Assembly: GCA_030648295.1 (NCBI GenBank)
Contig: JAUSID010000180.1
Coordinates: 1 to 64,000 of the forward strand
Source: Opitutaceae bacterium
Lineage (GTDB): Bacteria > Verrucomicrobiota > Verrucomicrobiia > Opitutales > Opitutaceae
Direction of reading: 5' to 3'
DNA length: 64,000 nucleotides
A program made the position numbers and the translations under genes. Shown in pieces: positions 33,517 through 42,434 of the stretch. The notes beneath the pieces were generated by a model. That model had not been told where the DNA came from, ran no database searches, and saw nothing but the letters and a program-made list of their open reading frames with translations. Within the stretch, counting starts at the first letter, position 1, and every line of letters starts with the position of its first letter.

Positions 33517-35734
33517 ATGTTTTCCGCTTCATTTCTCCGGCGTCTGGCCCGTGCATCCCGCGCGGCGCCTTCCCTGTTGTCGCTCCTCGGTTTACTCTGG
33601 GTGACCTCGGCGAGCGCGGACGAGTCGAGCAAACGCGTGTTTAATATCCCAGCCGATGCCGCCGAGAAAACGCTGAAGGTTTTCTCCGAGCAATCGGGCC
33701 GCAGCATGGTCGTCGGCGTCGCCACCGTGAAGGGCATCCGCACCAATGCCGTGAACGGCGAATTCACGGTTCGGGAGGCGCTCGACCGGATGCTCGCGGG
33801 CACCGGGCTCGTCGCCACACACGATGAAAAGGGAGGGGCGTTTACCGTCAGGAAAGCGGAGGACAACAACGACTATTTCGCCGACCTGCGCGGCGTGCTG
33901 GCTTCGACGGTCGCCACCGCGCAGCAGAACACGATGATCATCGACCCGAGCGTGGTCGATTACTCGGTCAATCCCGCGGGCCCCGGCGCCCAGCGCGACA
34001 CGCGGTTTTCGAACTGGATGGTCGGGATCGAGCAGAAACTGCCCGCGCGCACGTTCCTCTCGCTGGGGTTCAATCACCAGGCCTACAACTTCGTCGGCTA
34101 CGATCCGGGCGAGGGCACGTCGAACACGCTGTCCGGCGATCCCAACGAGCTCCTGCCCGCGGGGCCGACCACGACGCAGGCAAACCCGTTTGCCGGCCGC
34201 TACTACGTCGAGACGAACTGGTATCGGCGCGACCGTAGCGAGGATTTCAATACACTCCGCGCGGCGCTGGCCCACGAGTTCGACCTCGGCCCCTGGGGCC
34301 AATACCGCTGGGCCGCCCTGGTCGAGCACGAACGCAGCAGTTTTCAGCGCGACGAGCGCCGCGAAAGCTGGGATCGGCAGCCCGTTCAACGCGCAGCCGG
34401 AAAACAACGCCAACCAGGTCTGGCGGCGGTATTATCTCACCGAGGGCCAGTGGGGCAGCTATCGCGTGCCCGCGGCCAACGGCCCGTTGATCACCAATCG
34501 CACCGATCCGGTGACCGGCCGCACGCTTTCGTCGCGCTGGGTGCAGCGCAACACGAACATCGACGACGACAACCAGCGGCTCAACACGCGACTCATCGGC
34601 GGACAGGCGGCGTTTTTCCAGCGCCGGCTCATCGGCACCTTCGGCTACCGCCGCGACGAGGTGCGGCTCGAGAACCGCGGCACCGCGCGCGATCCCGCCA
34701 CCCAGGAATTCGTGGTGGATTACGGCACCGTCGCCGGGTCGCGCGACAACGCGCAGACGCGCACGCTCGGTGCCGTGTGGCACGTCACGCCGGCGGTTTC
34801 CCTCACCTACAATCGCTCCAACAACAATGCTCTGCCGAACAACGCGCACCGCGTGCTGCCGGGCTCGGCGCGGCCGGCGGCAGGCCAGGGTCGCGGCGAG
34901 GATCTCGGTGCCGGCCTGGAACTGTTCGATGGCCGGCTCAATTTCCGCGGTACGTATTTCACCACCTCGGGCCGGCAGGAATCCGACTTTCGCAGCATCA
35001 TCACGATCGTGACGAATCGGAATATCCGGATTCTGAATGCGCTGGTGAACGCCGGCCAGATCACCACCGCCGCGGCCGACGCGCACCAGGTGAACTCCAA
35101 CGGCGGTTACTCCGATCGCGAATCCGAGGGCTGGGAATTTCGCGTGGTCGCGAATCCCACGTCGAACTGGCGGCTGCAGGCGAACTACTCGATCACCGAC
35201 GCCGTCGAGAGCAACATCATCCCCGAAGTGCGCGCGTGGGCCGACGAGAACATCGCGTTCTGGAGCCGCACCGACACCGCCGTGCTCACCAGCAGCAATA
35301 TCTCCATCGCGCAGGAGATCGCGAACCTGCGCGACGACATCGCCGCGCAAACCTCCGCCGAAGGCCGCGGCGCGATCGGCAACCGCCGGCACAAGGCGAA
35401 TCTCTTCGTGCGCCACGATTTCTCGCGGGGCCCGAAGGGCCTCTACGCCGGCGGCGGCTGGCGTTACCAGAGCAAAATGCTCACCGGCCGGAATCTCGCG
35501 ACCAATCTCCTCCAATACAGCGACGCGATCATCCGCACCGATTTGCTGCTCGGCTATCGCTTCAGGCTTTCCTCCACAAACCGCCTGCGCGCGCACGTGC
35601 AGCTCAATATCAGCAACGTGCTCGACGACGACGACCCGATGATCCTGCGCCGGACGCCCGACGATCTCTACGTGCGCCGGTTCAGCGTGGTCGAGCCGCG
35701 AACCTTCCGGCTCAGCACCACGATCGAGTTTTAG
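33517..35734 (+). pseudogene. STN-type TonB-dependent receptor, internally deleted and frameshifted
   Basis: The first frame starts at ATG 33517 with a signal peptide and a complete STN signalling domain (R-V-F-N-I-P-A-D-A-A-E-K-T-L-K to A-F-T-V-R-K). It then jumps straight into mid-barrel sequence (Y-F-A-D-L-R-G, then V-D-Y-S-V-N-P-A-G-P-G) with no TonB box or plug. Comparison with the intact receptor at 45992-48919 indicates roughly 300 residues are missing around 33870. A second lesion near 34350-34385 shifts the barrel into the +1 frame, where it continues cleanly to F-R-L-S-T-T-I-E-F and TAG 35734. Without a plug it cannot be a gated receptor. The STN part could still be made. It is third in the sigma/FecR triad. 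Confidence 0.82.
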
Positions 35735-35736
35735 CC

Positions 35737-35990
35737 GGCTCCCCTCCCGCGAGCTATGTCAACGGCCAAATCCTCGTGCAAGCAACGGACTCCGCCCTGA
35801 CGACCGGCACGCCGGGAGTGATCACCTATTTCCCGGCCGCGGAGTTCGGCGACGTGCTGGTGACAGCGCCATCTGGATGCACGACGCCAGCGGCAACTCC
35901 AGTATCGCGGATGAGCTCGAGTCCTTCGGGCAGCCCAATGTCAAAATCGCCGGTCCGGGCGTGTATACGCTGCAGACGAAGCCGATGTGC
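35737..35990 (+). pseudogene. Remnants of a secreted carbohydrate-active protein
   Basis: Directly after the receptor, one frame reads A-S-Y-V-N-G-Q-I-L-V-Q-A-T-D-S-A-L then G-T-P-G-V-I-T-Y, up to about 35865. This looks like the last strands of a LamG-like domain. Another frame then reads D-S-A-I-W-M-H-D-A-S-G-N and P-N-V-K-I-A-G-P-G-V-Y-T-L-Q-T-K, up to about 35990. Neither has a start or a complete domain, and they are in different frames. I interpret them as leftovers of one or two deleted genes. Confidence 0.5.
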
Positions 35991-36069
35991 GTGCGGGCGA
36001 GAGCGGTCACTTGTCGAGGCACGGCCGTCCCGGCCGGAGTGGTTTTTCGAAATCGGTACACCAAACACT

Positions 36070-36095
36070 GCGGGCGAGACGCCCGCGCTCCCAGG
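36070..36095. repeat. GARASRP-family palindromic repeat
   Basis: A single unit with core GCGGGCGAGACGCCCGC then GCTCCCAGG. It lies between the gene remnants and the 3' end of the minus-strand glycoside hydrolase. Confidence 0.75.
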
Positions 36096-36125
36096 CGAAT
36101 CCGAAATCCGCAATTCGAAATCTTT

Positions 36126-38681
36126 TCACGGCCACTCGACTTCGTACCACAACGTCCGGTGTTCCGGGCCAATCTTAAAACGCGATCGCTCGGCTCCATC
36201 CGCGGCGACGATCTCGCGGCCGCGCTGTCCTCGACCGTCGAGCACGAACACCCGCGCGCCGCGTCGCGGCAATGTGATCTCCGCGGCGATGCCGTTGACC
36301 TGCGCCGGCCCGGTGCCCCACTGGTTGCCGACCGAGGTGCGGGCTTCGTTCCATTTCATCCCGCTGTTCTGCGCCGAGCCCACCGCCGCCAGCAACGCCC
36401 GGCTGCTTTGTTCCAGCGGCTGGCCGTCCATGCTCGTGAGCACAAGCACGGCGTAGTCGCGCTCCACTGCGCCGACCGCCAGCGTCATGCCGCTGAGTGT
36501 GAACCGCTGTCCGCCGACGAGTCCCCACATCGCGCGAGTGGCGGGCGTGTTGAGAATCACGTGAGCGCGATTGGCCTCGGTTGCATCCCAGATCGCGCGG
36601 CCGTCCGGTGAGGCGAGCCGTTTTCCCGGTGGCGCAGACACCTTTGCCGCCGTCGTCGCTTTCGGATCAATCCCGAGCCGGTGCGTGAGCCCAAGCGTCG
36701 CGGGCAGCATCTTGTCCACCGTGCCGGCCGCGGTCAGCGGCAGCGGTGCGAGATCGCCATGCCGGAACATCCGCGCGAACGCACTGAAGAGCGCGAGCTT
36801 GGCCGGCTGGCCATTGAATGAGAAATAGCGCTGGACCTTGTCCGAATACCAGCCGCCGTCGCCGCCGCTATGATATTGGAAAAAGAATATGCCGTCCCAG
36901 TCCTGAAGCGCCGCGATCATCGCCGCGAACGGCACGACGCTGGCGGCGTAGTCGTGCGGATCGGGGATGTTCCATTCCGACATCGTGTACGGCCGATCCA
37001 GCAGCCGCCACGGGGCGCGTCCCAGCATCGCATCCGTCTCCGGCGTGCGCTCCATCGGCGTGTTCGGGAGGTTCCAGTCCACGGGATCCCACGGTTTGCG
37101 CGGGAACCGCGGATGCTGCCAATACGCGTGAATGTCCGCATAGTCGCACGTCGCCGCCACGATTTGGGGCGAGTGATAATTGATCTGCGACGCGGTGATC
37201 GGCACGCGCACGCCGAGATCCTTTTTCAGAAAGTCGACGAGATCGCGGATGAACGCCGTCTCGGTGTCGGCCATGAACCGGAGCGCGTCGCGTTGCGCGA
37301 GTTCGCTCCAGCCGGCGACCGGAATATCAACCGTGCGCGCCTCGAGCGTCTGACCCGCGGGCACCACGACCCAATCGCCTCCCCGCCGGAGCGTGAGTCC
37401 CGCGAGCGAAAACGCGACCGGACTGGTGCCGAATTTGAAGCAGATTCGCGCCATACCCGGAATCTCATCGCTGGCGCGAAACACGCGATGGATGCGCTGC
37501 CACTCGGACCCGAGCGAGAGCGTCTCGCGGAATCCGACCGGGTTCCAGTTGGCAGGACCCGCGTTCGAAACATCGACGAAGAGCGACCGCGACGCGGTTG
37601 CGCGGACCCAGAACGACAACGTGTGGACCTGGCCGGGTTCGAGTTTGAGGTTCGGAAACTGGATTTCGTTTGCGCTCATCTCGCCGCCGGCACTGGCGGG
37701 CTGGAGCAGCAGCGCGGGGGTGCCGGGCTCCGGGCCCGGCTGGCCGAAGCGCGTCGCGAGCGGATGCTCCGCGCTCTGCTTGACGCGCCACGCGCCCAGG
37801 CCGGCCTTCCACGCGCTGGAGTCGGCCAGGGTCGCGCCGAGCGGTTCGTTCGCGCCGGCCCACGACTTCCGCAGCGCCGCGGTGTTCGCGTAATGCTGCG
37901 TGAGCCACGCGTTCCACTGGCGCTTGAATTCGCCGCGATACGGTTCCGGCAGTCCCGCCGCAATGTCGGGCCCGAGTTTGCTGAACGAGTTCTCGTTCGT
38001 GATCTCGATCATCGCGATGCCCGGATCATCGACGCGCCGGAGTTTCCGGTACGGATTTTCGTGCCGCAGGTAATCGCGGCAAAACTCCTTCAGCGCCGCG
38101 CGCATCGCCGGCATGAAGTAGAGCAGGTACTTATCGTACCGGACGGCGTAGGGCAGCCCGTCACGCACCACGCCCTCGGCGCGGCCAAGTTCGCGACCGA
38201 CATGCAGGTTCAGATTCGCATAGATGCCGTGGCGGTGCAGTTCGTTGAGAAAATAATCCTGCCGCTCGATCTGGTCGGGGTTCAACGTGCGGTGGCCGGC
38301 GACGACGGCGCCCCAGATCCCGCGCGGCGCCGGCGACGTGTCGTGATGATGCATCCGCACGGCGTTGACGCCCAGTTTGGCGAGGTGCGCGGCGACCTTC
38401 GCGGCATCGGCGTGCTCGGGAAAATTCGCGCCGAAGCAGGTGTTGAAACCCCAGATCCTAAGCCGGCCGGCGTCCGTGAAAAAATGGCCGTCCTGCACGC
38501 GGACAAATCCGTCGGCCCCAGCGGCTCGCGGCGAAAGCGCCGACAGATTGGTGATCGACGGCGAAGCATCATCGCCGGGAATGACAAAGGGGAATCGCTC
38601 GTCCGCGGCACGGGCGGCAAACACGGCTGGAATTGCGCCGGCGCAAAGCAGCCGGAGTAAACGCGTCACGGAGGGGCACAT
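36126..38681 (-). CDS. Secreted clan GH-A-like glycoside hydrolase
   Basis: From ATG 38681 the product has 851 residues with a signal peptide (L-L-R-L-L-C-A-G-A-I-P-A-V-F-A). The N-terminal part resembles TIM-barrel cellulase-type hydrolases: R-I-W-G-F-N-T-C-F-G, L-G-V-N-A-V-R-M-H-H-H-D, then I-T-N-E-N-S, which supplies the likely acid/base Glu. A beta-sandwich resembling a carbohydrate-binding module interrupts around 330-460. The barrel then resumes with Y-T-M-S-E-W-N, the likely nucleophile Glu, and the protein ends in a beta-domain. The frame is open to 38771 but that extension lacks a signal peptide. Substrate unknown. It stands alone, next to the broken TonB triad, with which it may once have worked. 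Confidence 0.78.
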   Translation of the reverse strand: MCPSVTRLLRLLCAGAIPAVFAARAADERFPFVIPGDDASPSITNLSALSPRAAGADGFVRVQDGHFFTDAGRLRIWGFNTCFGANFPEHADAAKVAAHLAKLGVNAVRMHHHDTSPAPRGIWGAVVAGHRTLNPDQIERQDYFLNELHRHGIYANLNLHVGRELGRAEGVVRDGLPYAVRYDKYLLYFMPAMRAALKEFCRDYLRHENPYRKLRRVDDPGIAMIEITNENSFSKLGPDIAAGLPEPYRGEFKRQWNAWLTQHYANTAALRKSWAGANEPLGATLADSSAWKAGLGAWRVKQSAEHPLATRFGQPGPEPGTPALLLQPASAGGEMSANEIQFPNLKLEPGQVHTLSFWVRATASRSLFVDVSNAGPANWNPVGFRETLSLGSEWQRIHRVFRASDEIPGMARICFKFGTSPVAFSLAGLTLRRGGDWVVVPAGQTLEARTVDIPVAGWSELAQRDALRFMADTETAFIRDLVDFLKKDLGVRVPITASQINYHSPQIVAATCDYADIHAYWQHPRFPRKPWDPVDWNLPNTPMERTPETDAMLGRAPWRLLDRPYTMSEWNIPDPHDYAASVVPFAAMIAALQDWDGIFFFQYHSGGDGGWYSDKVQRYFSFNGQPAKLALFSAFARMFRHGDLAPLPLTAAGTVDKMLPATLGLTHRLGIDPKATTAAKVSAPPGKRLASPDGRAIWDATEANRAHVILNTPATRAMWGLVGGQRFTLSGMTLAVGAVERDYAVLVLTSMDGQPLEQSSRALLAAVGSAQNSGMKWNEARTSVGNQWGTGPAQVNGIAAEITLPRRGARVFVLDGRGQRGREIVAADGAERSRFKIGPEHRTLWYEVEWP

Positions 38682-39152: not shown

Positions 39153-39794
39153 CTAATCCATTCGCTCGTCCGCGTCACCTTGCGGTTGATCCACGCCATC
39201 GATGCGATCGCATTCCGGATGATCGCACGGCGTGAAGCCCGTGGCGCGATGACGGCAAAGCGATCCAAATCCCTCGATTGCATCGGTCGCGATTTGCCGG
39301 AGCGCGAGATCGAGCGCCGTGACCGCGGCGTCGCGTGCCACGGGATCGAGCGTGGGTGCCTCGGCTTGCAGCAGCACCAGCGCCTCGAACAGCGCCTGGC
39401 GGCCGGCGCGAAAATACGAAAGATAAGGATTCCGTCCACAGGGGCAGTCCGGGGCTGATGCCGGCTGCTCGGCGCTCCCGCAGCGCAGCGCGGCGAAAAT
39501 GGCATCGAGTGTCTCGTCGAGCATGAAGATCAGCGCGCGCGGATTCGCGAGGGGAGTGTTGACGGGCTCCACGAACAACAGCTCGAGCCAGCGCGAGCGA
39601 ATCTGTCCGCGCCTCAGTCGCATCGCCTGTTCCACTTCCTTCTGCATGACCACGGTGCGGGGCTCGGTGCTGCAGGAAACGGCCATCGACCATTTTCCGT
39701 TCACAATCGCGCGGGTTGTCGACCCGGTGCCCCCCGCTTTATTCGGAAGTGACGGCGCCGCCGAAAAACCATTCATGACCGGGCTGTGATCCAT
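39153..39794 (-). CDS. Uncharacterised protein downstream of an FNR-type box
   Basis: I do not recognise the family. From ATG 39794 it has 213 residues; an ATG at 39776 is an alternative that leaves a longer leader after the upstream box. The centre is helical (K-E-V-E-Q-A-M-R-L-R-R-G-Q-I-R-S-R-W-L-E-L-L-F) with a conserved-looking P-L-A-N-P-R-A-L-I-F-M-L-D-E-T. The C-terminal half has Cys-containing patches C-P-C-G-R-N-P-Y and T-P-C-D-H-P-E-C, which could bind a metal. There is no signal peptide or membrane helix. It is the last gene of the DUF2249-to-DUF59 set and has its own FNR-like box, suggesting expression at low oxygen or under nitrosative conditions. Confidence 0.65.
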   Translation of the reverse strand: MDHSPVMNGFSAAPSLPNKAGGTGSTTRAIVNGKWSMAVSCSTEPRTVVMQKEVEQAMRLRRGQIRSRWLELLFVEPVNTPLANPRALIFMLDETLDAIFAALRCGSAEQPASAPDCPCGRNPYLSYFRAGRQALFEALVLLQAEAPTLDPVARDAAVTALDLALRQIATDAIEGFGSLCRHRATGFTPCDHPECDRIDGVDQPQGDADERMD

Positions 39795-39833
39795 TGGAAT
39801 GCAGGAGCCTAACACGGAGTTCCTCCGCTGCCC

Positions 39834-39847
39834 TTGACGCAGATCAA
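39834..39847 (-). promoter_or_regulatory. FNR/NnrR-type box upstream of the 39153-39794 gene
   Basis: TTGACGCAGATCAA matches the FNR/CRP-family consensus TTGAT-N4-ATCAA with one mismatch. Its centre is about 46 bases upstream of ATG 39794, and it overlaps the stop codon of the small Cys-rich gene. A second box of the same design precedes the first gene of the set. Confidence 0.65.
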
Positions 39848-40062
39848 GGGTTTCTGGCCCTGTCCGTTTCCGTCGTGCCCCAGCGTTTCGCCTCCGCTTT
39901 CCGTCGGTTTTCCTCCTCGCGTTCCCGAATCCGGTGTTCGACCGGCACGGCAAACACGGCCTTGCTCCCGAGCACGCAGCCAGGCCGGCCCGGCACGCAG
40001 TCGGTCTTCAACCGCAGGCAGCCGTCGGAATTGATTTCAAAATGAGGACAGGAAAAACTCAT
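39844..40062 (-). CDS. Small Cys-rich protein
   Basis: This 72-residue protein from ATG 40062 starts M-S-F-S-C-P-H-F. It has four cysteines in its first 30 residues (C-P-H, G-C-L-R-L-K, D-C-V-P-G-R-P-G-C), which could hold an iron-sulfur cluster or zinc. The C-terminal half is a charged helix (E-H-R-I-R-E-R-E-E-E-N-R-R-K-A-E). The start lies 41 bases after the DUF59 gene, in the same direction, and the longer frame upstream overlaps that gene. I do not recognise a named family. The clean start, compact Cys pattern and operon position support it as real. Confidence 0.65.
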   Translation of the reverse strand: MSFSCPHFEINSDGCLRLKTDCVPGRPGCVLGSKAVFAVPVEHRIREREEENRRKAEAKRWGTTETDRARNP

Positions 40063-40103
40063 CGGGGACGAAGCGGTGTGCGTCGGATGCGCCGGCAGGA
40101 CGA

Positions 40104-40418
40104 TCACTCTGTGCCGAGGTGGCGGCGCGCTTCGGCGCTCAACATGTTGGGATTCCACGCGGGTTCGAACACCAGGTCGACGTTCACGGATTTGACGCCG
40201 GGCAGCCGCGCCAGCGCATTCTTCACGCCTTCGTGGATCCACGCGCCGGACGGGCAGGTTTCGGTCGTCAACGTCATGACGACGTCGATACTGCCGTCGG
40301 TTACCTCGACGCTGTAAATCAGCCCGAGGTCTACGATGTTGACCCCGAATTCAGGGTCGGGGATGGCGCGGAGCGCCGCCCAGGCGGAGGTGGAATCGGT
40401 GACAGCTTCGGAGTTCAT
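40104..40418 (-). CDS. DUF59 / MIP18-family iron-sulfur assembly protein
   Basis: A 104-residue single-domain protein with the MIP18/SufT-like core: L-R-A-I-P-D-P-E-F-G-V-N-I-V-D-L-G-L-I-Y, V-V-M-T-L-T-T-E-T-C-P, and P-G-V-K-S-V-N-V-D-L-V-F-E-P-A-W-N-P. The Cys in T-E-T-C-P is the conserved family Cys. Such proteins help mature iron-sulfur proteins. Its ATG overlaps the stop of the upstream membrane protein by ATGA. In this context it may help build or repair clusters under low oxygen or nitric oxide. Confidence 0.9.
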   Translation of the reverse strand: MNSEAVTDSTSAWAALRAIPDPEFGVNIVDLGLIYSVEVTDGSIDVVMTLTTETCPSGAWIHEGVKNALARLPGVKSVNVDLVFEPAWNPNMLSAEARRHLGTE

Positions 40419-41827
40419 GTGACGGCAGCAGGCATGGGCGCGGCGGCGGGAATTTCCGGCCACCACAGGTGTTTGAGGACGCCGATCATATCGAGCGTGA
40501 AAAGTGCGACGCCGGCGGCCAGCACCCACGCGCCGGCTTGAAGCATCGTCTCGTTCAAAGTCCATGCACCGACCAGCAGCGGCGCCACGGCGGCGGTCTG
40601 AAGCCCGAGGCCCCACCGCTCCAGCCGCGGCCGGGTCAGCGCTGACGCGGCGGGCGTTGGCACGCGGCCGACCTTGGGGCCGTAGGCGCGCATCCAGGTC
40701 AGGAAGGGCACGATTTTGCACATCATCCCGGCGATGCATGGCAACAGTCCACCGGCAATCGCGATCAAGGCGTACACCATCGCACTGAATCCACCCGGCG
40801 CCGAGCCCCACGGCGATCCGGGCCACGCGAGGGCGATCCCCGCGACCATCGCGGAGCTGATGCCGGCGCCGCCGACGAGAAACCAGCGGGTTCCAGGATC
40901 GAATGCGCGCTTCCGACGTGTCGCCAGCGCGCGCTTCATCGCCACGGCCGAGCAAATCCAGCCCGCGGCAATCGCCAGCGCGAAAAGAGTGGTCGGCAGC
41001 GCGACTCCGGCGGCGAGTGCCACCACCAGCCCGATCATCCCGAGTTGCGAAAGCCAGAGTCCGGCGTTGATGAGTCGCCAGTCGCGGACTTCGCCCAGCG
41101 TGAACATCGGCACGAGTTGAAACGCGACGCCTTGGAGAAGCGTGATGAAGACGCCGACGAGTCCGAGATGGGCATGCGCCCGCAGCAGCGACAGCGGATC
41201 CAGCGGGATGAAGTGCCAGAATCGATTGGCGGCGAGGGTGACGCCCACGAGCGCGGTCAGCAGCATCCAGCCCGCGGCGAGCGAAATCGACCACGCGACC
41301 GCGCCGCTGCGGCCCGATCGCTTCACCGTTCGCCACGTGTTGTCGGCGAAGAGAATGATGCCGAGCGTCACCACGAATCCGAAGTGTCCGAGCAGCGCGA
41401 GATCCCAGACCCAGAACGAATACACCATCCCGGGAACGCCGACGGCGTGCAGCCCGAAATGCCACCACGCGCGCCGTTCGCTGCACAACGTGGTGCCGAG
41501 CGCGACGGGCGCGAGCTGGTAAACCGCGCCGCACGCGACGGTGATGAAAAATCCGAGCACCCACGCATGCGTGAGGGCCACGACCTGCGGGCTCGCATGC
41601 GTGAGGCTGAGCAGCGCGGGCTGCGCGAGCAGCAATCCGCTCGAAGCGACGAGCCAGGCGAGAGCCAGGCCCATGAACGCGAGCGGCAGCCGGCCCTGGT
41701 TGGCGAGCCAGCTCGAGCCCGGCCCCACGGGCAGCGTCGCGGCGCGCAACGGTGGCCGCGGCGCGGCGCGTTCAAGCGCGCTCAAGCTCGGTGACCCAAC
41801 TGCCGTCGGGCTGAGCGGTGCATGCAT
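40415..41827 (-). CDS. 12-TM membrane protein, NnrS / haem-copper-oxidase-like
   Basis: From ATG 41827 the product has 470 residues with about twelve hydrophobic helices. Several helices contain His residues placed as in haem-binding polytopic proteins: L-T-H-A-W-V-L-G-F-F, L-L-G-H-F-G-F, and R-A-H-A-H-L-G-L-V-G-V-F. It resembles the loose NnrS/cytochrome-oxidase-I-like group found in nitric-oxide-responsive operons. I would not assign an enzymatic activity. The start overlaps the DUF2249 gene by about 56 bases; a start at 41857 is also open. The end overlaps the DUF59 start by ATGA, so the genes are coupled. Confidence 0.72.
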   Translation of the reverse strand: MHAPLSPTAVGSPSLSALERAAPRPPLRAATLPVGPGSSWLANQGRLPLAFMGLALAWLVASSGLLLAQPALLSLTHASPQVVALTHAWVLGFFITVACGAVYQLAPVALGTTLCSERRAWWHFGLHAVGVPGMVYSFWVWDLALLGHFGFVVTLGIILFADNTWRTVKRSGRSGAVAWSISLAAGWMLLTALVGVTLAANRFWHFIPLDPLSLLRAHAHLGLVGVFITLLQGVAFQLVPMFTLGEVRDWRLINAGLWLSQLGMIGLVVALAAGVALPTTLFALAIAAGWICSAVAMKRALATRRKRAFDPGTRWFLVGGAGISSAMVAGIALAWPGSPWGSAPGGFSAMVYALIAIAGGLLPCIAGMMCKIVPFLTWMRAYGPKVGRVPTPAASALTRPRLERWGLGLQTAAVAPLLVGAWTLNETMLQAGAWVLAAGVALFTLDMIGVLKHLWWPEIPAAAPMPAAVT

Positions 41828-42335
41828 GGCGGAATCCGCGTTGAGTGGCCTCGCCAAACAGGTGGCACGGCTCGCGATCGGTGAGAGCGCGCAGCGCGCC
41901 GCCGGCCGGCAGCGATTCGAGCGCGTTCAAGATTCGGATCAGCGGTTCCGGTGGCTCCAGCCCGCGGGCGTCGAGCTCATATCGCTGGCTTCCGCAAGAT
42001 GAGGCGGAGGGCGCGGCCGCAGGCGCGGTGCCGCACACCGGACCCGGCTCACGGCTCGCGACGGGCGCCAGCTTGGTGATCTTCACGCGAAAATCCTCGG
42101 GCCCGCGCTCGAGGTATTCCCAGGCGAACGCCTCGCCGAACTCCGCCGAGAACTGATAATAGAGCGGCACGGGGTCGTGATCATTGAGCAGCACGAAGTA
42201 TTCGCCGACGGGCAGGTCGAGCCAGCGCTGGAAGATCTGCGCGTGCTTCACGCGACACGGAATGGGCCGGACATCGAAGACGGCGCACGGATCGATGGGG
42301 CCGGAGGACGGTTGGACTGTGTTGGGGACGAGCAT
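41772..42335 (-). CDS. Tandem DUF2249 protein
   Basis: From ATG 42335 the product has 187 residues containing two DUF2249 (TusA-like) domains. The first reads F-D-V-R-P-I-P-C-R-V-K-H-A-Q-I-F then L-N-D-H-D-P-V-P-L-Y-Y-Q-F. The second reads Y-E-L-D-A-R-G-L-E-P-P-E-P-L then L-T-D-R-E-P-C-H-L-F. DUF2249 proteins often occur with hemerythrin/YtfE and denitrification genes and may handle nitric oxide or sulfur. I chose 42335 over 42386 because an FNR-type box centred at 42427 would place the transcript start near 42386. It is first in the set of minus-strand genes. Confidence 0.82.
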   Translation of the reverse strand: MLVPNTVQPSSGPIDPCAVFDVRPIPCRVKHAQIFQRWLDLPVGEYFVLLNDHDPVPLYYQFSAEFGEAFAWEYLERGPEDFRVKITKLAPVASREPGPVCGTAPAAAPSASSCGSQRYELDARGLEPPEPLIRILNALESLPAGGALRALTDREPCHLFGEATQRGFRHACTAQPDGSWVTELERA

Positions 42336-42420
42336 GGATGTGATGGGTGGTGGGTGCTTCACACCGGAAGGGCGTGGCGCTTTCACGGGTTGAGTATCTC
42401 ACGTGGCGGCCCGACGCGCA

Positions 42421-42434
42421 TTGATGCGGGTCAA
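42421..42434 (-). promoter_or_regulatory. FNR/NnrR-type box upstream of the DUF2249 operon
   Basis: TTGATGCGGGTCAA matches TTGAT-N4-ATCAA with one mismatch. Activation at the usual -41.5 position predicts a transcript start near 42386 and a leader of about 50 bases before ATG 42335. Confidence 0.68.

Follow-up and report, generated by a model that had tools for sequence, protein, structure and literature searches.

We report that a 64,000-nucleotide stretch of contig JAUSID010000180.1 from an Opitutaceae bacterium (phylum Verrucomicrobiota; the whole stretch is referred to as the window) carries on its minus strand, at positions 39153-42434, an operon that is, close to certainly as judged from its promoter sequence, controlled by an FNR/DNR-type protein. 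The operon encodes a DUF2249 protein, a protein with 12 transmembrane (TM) helices (the 12-TM protein), a DUF59 protein and a 72-residue cysteine protein (Cys72), and it is followed by a gene of a further unnamed family (P213). The explanation that we favour, and to which we assign a probability of about 0.62, is that this is an accessory operon of a denitrification regulon, under DNR-like control and engaged in the upkeep of heme and iron-sulfur (FeS) centres or in the removal of nitric oxide (NO). The genome is available as a draft assembly of 9,122,190 bases in 294 contigs.

Box 1 (42421-42434; TTGATGCGGGTCAA when read on the plus strand and TTGACCCGCATCAA on the minus strand) and box 2 (39834-39847; TTGACGCAGATCAA and TTGATCTGCGTCAA, respectively) are the sole exact matches to TTGAYNNNNRTCAA in the window, where 6 further sites with one mismatch were detected. 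Both copies of this palindrome, TTGAY-N4-RTCAA, are positioned upstream of minus-strand genes, and the two 14-base sites of the same design that were pointed out in a preliminary description of the region are both exact. Conservation was scored at 30 loci that contain the 12-TM gene, each from a different genome and with the window among them; 26 of these have at least 370 nucleotides (nt) of upstream sequence. A site is present upstream of the operon at 21 of the 30 loci; among the 26, the site was found at 19 and the reversed control pattern at 0, and approximately 0.05 sites would be expected by chance in 26 x 700 nt at the density of regulator-bearing genomes, 2.9 sites per Mb. Box 1 and the gene set behind it are hence conserved in relatives, a comparison that the preliminary description had proposed. 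Moreover, a -10-like hexamer, [TGC]ANNNT, is located exactly 22 bases downstream of 20 out of 23 boxes (at 20 of the 21 loci with a box), while every other spacer between 10 and 35 has at most one occurrence, the opposite direction gives 3/23 at spacer 22, and the background rate of the hexamer in the window is 2.5%. It follows both boxes of the window at this distance, as GATACT after box 1 (42393-42398, minus strand; predicted +1 near 42386) and as TAGGCT after box 2 (39806-39811, minus strand; predicted +1 near 39799). In class II FNR/DNR promoters the site lies near -41.5, and the 22-base spacing between box and putative -10 element is of this class II geometry.

A candidate for the protein that binds these sites is encoded on contig C95 of the same genome (G000:C95), in line with the suggestion that an FNR/CRP-family regulator should be present. 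It is the one clear HTH_Crp_2 protein of the genome; two other matches to HTH_Crp_2, the only Crp model searched, resemble MarR proteins by eye. Among solved structures its best relatives include DNR (3dkw; 86.7 bits, E 1.6e-23), with a full-length alignment that runs through the recognition helix with its ETxSR motif, in a tie with 3fx3, a 'cyclic nucleotide-binding protein' (86.6 bits, E 1.8e-23). No curated NCBIfam name applies, the best model being FtrB (94.4 vs a cut-off of 211), and the Fnr model also stays below its cut-off (56.7 vs 228). Classical FNR holds a [4Fe-4S] centre in an N-terminal cysteine cluster; inspection by eye of the region ahead of the sensor domain revealed scattered cysteines and no CxxC cluster. 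On the homology of its sensor and helix-turn-helix parts, including the ETxSR helix, the regulator is DNR-like. Its gene adjoins a cupredoxin-like gene (by eye), and a 76-residue stretch with 80% identity to its N-terminal part is present near the intact gene (G000:C95:30651-30872).

Together, box conservation, the 22-nt spacing and the DNR-like regulator gene support the FNR/NnrR-type control that had been predicted for the gene set. From these sites, their spacing, the conservation of box 1 and the regulator gene we infer binding, co-transcription and an NO or nitrite signal at low oxygen as follows. The DNR-like activator would bind box 1, centred near -41.5, and recruit RNA polymerase to a class II promoter with GATACT as -10 element; transcription from this promoter would cover the DUF2249, 12-TM, DUF59 and Cys72 genes together, and box 2 would drive P213 separately.

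Other genes of the genome are preceded by sites of the same type. The scan for TTGAYNNNNRTCAA gave 24 sites and 4 reversed-pattern controls, and several of the 24 fall within genes. The hexamer is present at spacer 22 in 7 of the 48 orientations of these sites (background 2.5%), and the seven spaced sites are the two boxes of the window, the box of a second operon copy on contig C40, and sites ahead of a YwiC-like gene (the name is taken from a clustered relative), NirK (349 vs a curated cut-off of 296), an alginate-export-like porin and a TonB receptor; the last site is 371 nt before its gene and may be due to chance. Near-match hexamers follow two further boxes: TACAAC ahead of a heme-copper oxidase (HCO) operon on C214, and AATGAT at spacer 22 ahead of a cytochrome c and type II molybdoenzyme operon on C20. 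The C20 operon (L003:1-3465) encodes a cytochrome c/ethylbenzene-dehydrogenase-type heme b protein and a type II molybdoenzyme-like protein, possibly the nitrate reductase of the regulon. The C214 operon (L018:3426-10710) includes genes for SCO1, a cytochrome b-ferredoxin protein and a complete COX1 (209.7 bits); two further products, a second COX1-like protein (33.6 vs 34.8) and a COX2-like protein (21.9 vs 22), narrowly miss their cut-offs. At the position where oxidases carry a Tyr motif, the main C214 subunit I has GHQSQQ, and we consider it a candidate B-family NO reductase. All six DUF2249 matches of the genome fall within the window operon, within its C40 copy or on C214 downstream of NirK. 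In the C40 copy (L007:1821-2705) the 12-TM gene reaches only residue 272 of 480, where it lies tail to tail with a short open reading frame (ORF) that by eye looks like aconitase, and the gene order resembles that of G413, which belongs to another genus; misassembly, a foreign contig and rearrangement are possible causes. Elsewhere in the window, a TonB-receptor-like ORF (33517-36456) loses its likeness to receptors after approximately residue 285 (by eye), perhaps being out of frame or decayed.

The first gene of the operon (41772-42335, minus strand; ATG at 42335) encodes a two-domain DUF2249 protein of 187 residues, in which Pfam PF10006 scores 147 bits (cut-off 29.5) in two stretches; the second half also gives a weak TusA match (31.4 vs 28.6). 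His31 and His53 are present in 94% and 97%, respectively, of 34 homologues. Denitrifying conditions induce the four DUF2249 genes of Haloferax mediterranei (PMC11218638). The third gene (40104-40418, minus strand), which starts in an ATGA overlap with the stop of the 12-TM gene, encodes a 104-residue DUF59 protein (Pfam FeS_assembly_P, PF01883; 66.2 vs a cut-off of 23.5) with Cys55 in 36/36 homologues; both family assignments of the preliminary description are accordingly above their Pfam cut-offs. DUF59 proteins assemble metal-sulfur centres. Assignment to the SufT or SUF_assoc equivalogs was rejected on the NCBIfam scores (88.4 vs 202.6 and 93.5 vs 143.4), and nothing that links DUF59 with NO was found in the literature, which here and below was searched mostly without subscription papers.

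The 12-TM gene between them (40415-41857, minus strand) has an uncertain start, anywhere from 41857 to approximately 41728, as its earliest in-frame codons overlap the DUF2249 gene. Pfam COX1 scores just below the cut-off (33 vs 34.8), and a profile of 25 homologues matches CcoN of cbb3 oxidases (E 2.8e-4). An AlphaFold model built from 8 sequences (pLDDT 69, pTM 0.72) superimposes on CcoN with a VIA Z of 32.7 (389 residues, rmsd 3.2) and on NO reductase chains with VIA Z values of 32.4 and 30.9, and as modelled the protein has the 12-TM, three-unit fold of the HCO superfamily. The only invariant histidines in the 25 homologues are 97 (TM2), 133 (TM3), 228 and 230 (both TM6) and 463 (TM12), as placed on the helices of the model. 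Catalytic subunits of HCOs and NO reductases use six histidines, in TM2, TM6, TM7 (two) and TM10 (two). Because TM7 and TM10 have no invariant histidine in the 25 homologues, the six-His active site is absent, and with most metal ligands missing a role as catalytic oxidase or NO reductase was rejected. We suggest instead a non-catalytic HCO homologue that probably binds one heme between His97 and His228, since the only invariant histidines of its alphaproteobacterial relatives align with these two. Of the earlier label NnrS/oxidase-like, the oxidase part is thus reflected in the fold, and NnrS was discarded: Pfam PF05940 matches 0/25 members at E<=1.

Cys72 (39844-40062, minus strand) has no accepted Pfam, NCBIfam or solved-structure (PDB) family, and the same is true of P213, in agreement with the statement that neither has a recognised function. 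Cys72 was matched in 45/252 genomes, 35 of which have a regulator homologue, and Cys5, Cys15, Cys22, Cys29 and His7 are invariant in the 27 aligned sequences out of 29 found. One of the 27 sequences resembles MBA1 (E 0.003), a match that is not believed, and none of 13 pattern stretches in viral contigs was confirmed. The probable role of Cys72 is that of a small helper protein that binds metal or FeS.

Box 2 covers the stop codon of Cys72 and, together with TAGGCT at spacer 22, fits the idea that P213 has a promoter of its own; in the one close relative, L054 (the same contig as G413:C22), a box stands ahead of a Cys72-P213 pair. The P213 ORF (39153-39794, minus strand) could encode 213 residues. 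In an alignment of 31 members, however, family homology begins only near Met50 (39647), approximately 197 nt past the Cys72 stop, so that a protein of approximately 164 residues (39153-39647) is likelier and 213 is probably an over-call. All five minus-strand genes described earlier are therefore there, and P213 is not tightly packed against the other four. The C-D-H-P-E-C patch that had been singled out is no family feature; the 31 members share instead a CxC (27/31 at each Cys) and a CxxC (26/31 and 29/31), and the P213 of the window keeps three of these cysteines. Matches of a single member out of 31 to NifQ (E 0.015), of another single member to RsbRD_N (E 0.038) and of 2/31 members to DUF2999 (E 0.013) are not believed. 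A model from two sequences is helical with low confidence (pLDDT 50, pTM 0.31) and was set aside.

Among 387 genomes sampled across the phylum, 24 contain a match to P213, every one of them in the same family. For the gene context, 15 loci (L160, L167-L180) were taken from 33 matches, and at 14 of these PocR-AraC/cbb3 genes (11 loci) or denitrification HCO, NirK or DNR genes (4 loci) are found within 6 kb, with L172 counted in both classes and L179 in neither; when L145 and L054/L121, which were reached through other genes, are included, cbb3 or denitrification genes are present at 16/17 places. At L160, L167, L168, L174-L176, L178 and L180 the P213-family gene adjoins a PocR-AraC regulator and a cbb3 operon (CcoNO-P-G). 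The identity of the neighbouring genes was verified on a single representative of each kind: PocR, CcoN, CcoO and NosZ are over their NCBIfam cut-offs, and the others were identified as FixP- and FixG-type proteins, a cupredoxin, an FGE-type protein (which we take to be NirV-like), YwiC, a cupin and a Crp-type regulator. P213 is probably a helical family that accompanies HCOs and serves their sensing or maturation.

The DUF2249, 12-TM and DUF59 genes also occur together outside the phylum. A plasmid collection contained 207 records for DUF2249, whereas the 12-TM protein gave 3 weak ones (E 2e-4 to 8e-4); of 18 listed matches, 5 (one to the 12-TM protein, the other four to DUF2249) were examined as loci. 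On plasmids of Gemmobacter, Shinella, Ensifer and Paracoccus, DUF2249 is grouped with a 'metal-sulfur cluster assembly factor' and with a 12-TM relative annotated as 'hypothetical protein'. Gemmobacter, Shinella and Ensifer also have nirK and an annotated NnrS in the vicinity; nor genes accompany the trio in Shinella and Ensifer, and norD does so in Paracoccus; Crp/Fnr genes lie close by in all but Ensifer. The fifth locus, from Halorussus, has DUF2249 beside an iron-sulfur cluster repair protein and lacks the trio. The alphaproteobacterial 12-TM proteins match the window family in hhalign (probability 99.5), and in these four sequences two histidines only are invariant, those aligned with His97 and His228. 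The plasmid trio thus shares with the window its three families, nirK/NnrS in 3/4 and Crp/Fnr genes in 3/4 loci, and differs in that the 12-TM gene precedes DUF2249, identity is approximately 28%, and neither Cys72 nor P213 has a match in the plasmid collection. Strict boxes are present there near nirK (L189:9179) and inside a 12-TM gene (L191:7105).

With class II DNR/FNR regulons the system has in common the TTGAY-N4-RTCAA site, a regulator with an ETxSR helix, the -10 element at 22 nt and nirK behind a spaced site; it differs in that an accessory operon, two families of which are unnamed, is among the targets. The 12-TM protein shares its fold with CcoN and the NO reductase NorB (Z 31-33 over approximately 375-393 residues) and differs from them in its invariant histidines, restricted to TM2, TM3, TM6 and TM12. 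NnrS and other non-catalytic HCO homologues were reportedly treated by Pei et al. in 2014. They and the 12-TM protein share 12 TM helices, an HCO fold, few histidines and a denitrification context; the two differ in that the 12-TM family does not match the Pfam NnrS model and that three alphaproteobacterial loci hold a 12-TM protein plus a separate annotated NnrS. No earlier account of the operon in Opitutaceae was found in the literature.

The 12-TM gene is present in 43 of the 252 genomes searched, and a regulator homologue (E<=1e-20) in 43/43 of these vs 114/252 overall (Fisher 7e-18), with NirK over its cut-off in 28/43 vs 89/252 (Fisher 1e-5); both values are descriptive only, as the genomes are related and independence is overstated. 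A DNR-like, NirK, NosZ or azurin-like gene lies near the operon at 10 of 18 wide-context loci (L121, L123-L139). These associations agree with a denitrification regulon, and a number of observations weigh against it. The regulator homologue is at least 57% identical in 25 of the 43 genomes and 42-54% identical in 18, so that orthology is supported at best for the former. NirK is not over its cut-off in 15/43 genomes, 8 of the 18 wide-context loci have no such denitrification neighbour, and Cys72 is near denitrification genes at 12 of the 25 loci with context (10/23 places after removal of two duplicates), several of which were fetched via the 12-TM gene. The exact box was not found at 7 of the 26 loci (L068, L071, L072, L074-L077), with a one-mismatch site at the right spacing only at L068; box 2 is not generally conserved, as four denitrification-island loci (L169-L172) have no box directly upstream of the P213 homologue; and no strict box is present upstream of the trio at the 4 alphaproteobacterial loci. 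In the Opitutaceae genome itself no NosZ exceeds the cut-off of TIGR04246, the only NosZ model searched, the assembly has 4% contamination, and the C40 contig is perhaps foreign or misjoined. Finally, 113 genomes with a regulator homologue have 1558 sites vs 481 controls, and the 138 without one likewise have an excess, 1263 vs 517 (approximately 2.4-fold). These totals exclude G490, in which the reversed control pattern occurs 88 times, far above every other genome and perhaps a repeated element or the site of another regulator. Composition or other Crp-type regulators are possible causes of the excess in regulator-less genomes, which weakens the raw excess as proof of a regulon; the genome-wide count is therefore weak evidence and is never the main support for regulation. 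The genome scan proposed in the preliminary description thus yielded spaced sites before nirK, the YwiC-like gene and the second operon copy, and a raw excess that is not specific to the regulator.

A chance origin of the boxes, with the operon outside FNR/DNR control, is very improbable. Such 14-mers arise randomly, and the sites inside genes and the excess in genomes without the regulator speak for chance; for box 1 it is rejected because the box is conserved upstream of the operon and followed by the hexamer at a fixed distance. Control by a DNR-like protein leaves several roles for the products. Upkeep of heme and FeS centres in denitrification, or the handling of NO in the membrane, is what we favour: the 12-TM protein, the soluble DUF2249 protein as its partner and the DUF59 assembly protein would most likely keep heme or iron-sulfur centres working, or alternatively remove NO from the membrane while NirK makes it.

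A signalling module, in which the DUF2249 and 12-TM proteins would detect nitrate, nitrite or NO and act back on the regulator, appears unlikely. Such a role has been proposed in Thermus thermophilus, where the DUF2249 proteins DrpA and DrpB act in nitrate respiration, require the Dnr-type regulator DnrT for their expression and, when both are lost, leave nar expression independent of nitrate (PMC6282519); DNR-like genes near the operon in six relatives (L128, L131, L132, L136, L137, L139) would also suit it. DrpB, however, consists of DUF1858 and two DUF2249 domains, and the text available on it mentions no 12-TM or DUF59 partner (PMC6282519), whereas the window protein matches only DUF2249 and TusA in Pfam at E<=1, with DUF1858 absent; the recurrent DUF59 partner would moreover fit maintenance better than sensing. 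We consider it just as doubtful that the 12-TM protein and its partners are maturation factors for the HCO or NO-reductase-like complex of the regulon itself, encoded on C214, and not part of a general NO defence. The C214 operon has site type and fold in common with the window operon and includes SCO1 and COX1 genes, and the relatives of P213 keep the company of cbb3 or denitrification genes almost throughout; yet the neighbours of the trio in Shinella and Ensifer are norQ, norD and the annotated large subunit of a nitric-oxide reductase instead of this HCO operon, and the 12-TM genomes without NirK over the cut-off also argue against maturation.

Upkeep of metal centres can be taken further in a joint reading that we offer tentatively: an undescribed heme/metal-centre maintenance system, common to denitrifiers across phyla, may be built around a catalytically dead HCO with one heme at a non-canonical TM2-TM6 site, with P213 as a new four-cysteine helical family for the HCOs of oxygen respiration (cbb3, with a PocR-type regulator) and of nitrogen-oxide respiration. 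A conserved and functionally blank trio, the 12-TM, DUF2249 and DUF59 proteins, is now placed behind a well-defined denitrification-type promoter, and Cys72 and P213, two unnamed families, gain a testable physiological setting. The 22-base rule, moreover, sets sites that are likely functional apart from the numerous palindromes that arise by chance and provides a simple reading of the regulon in related genomes.

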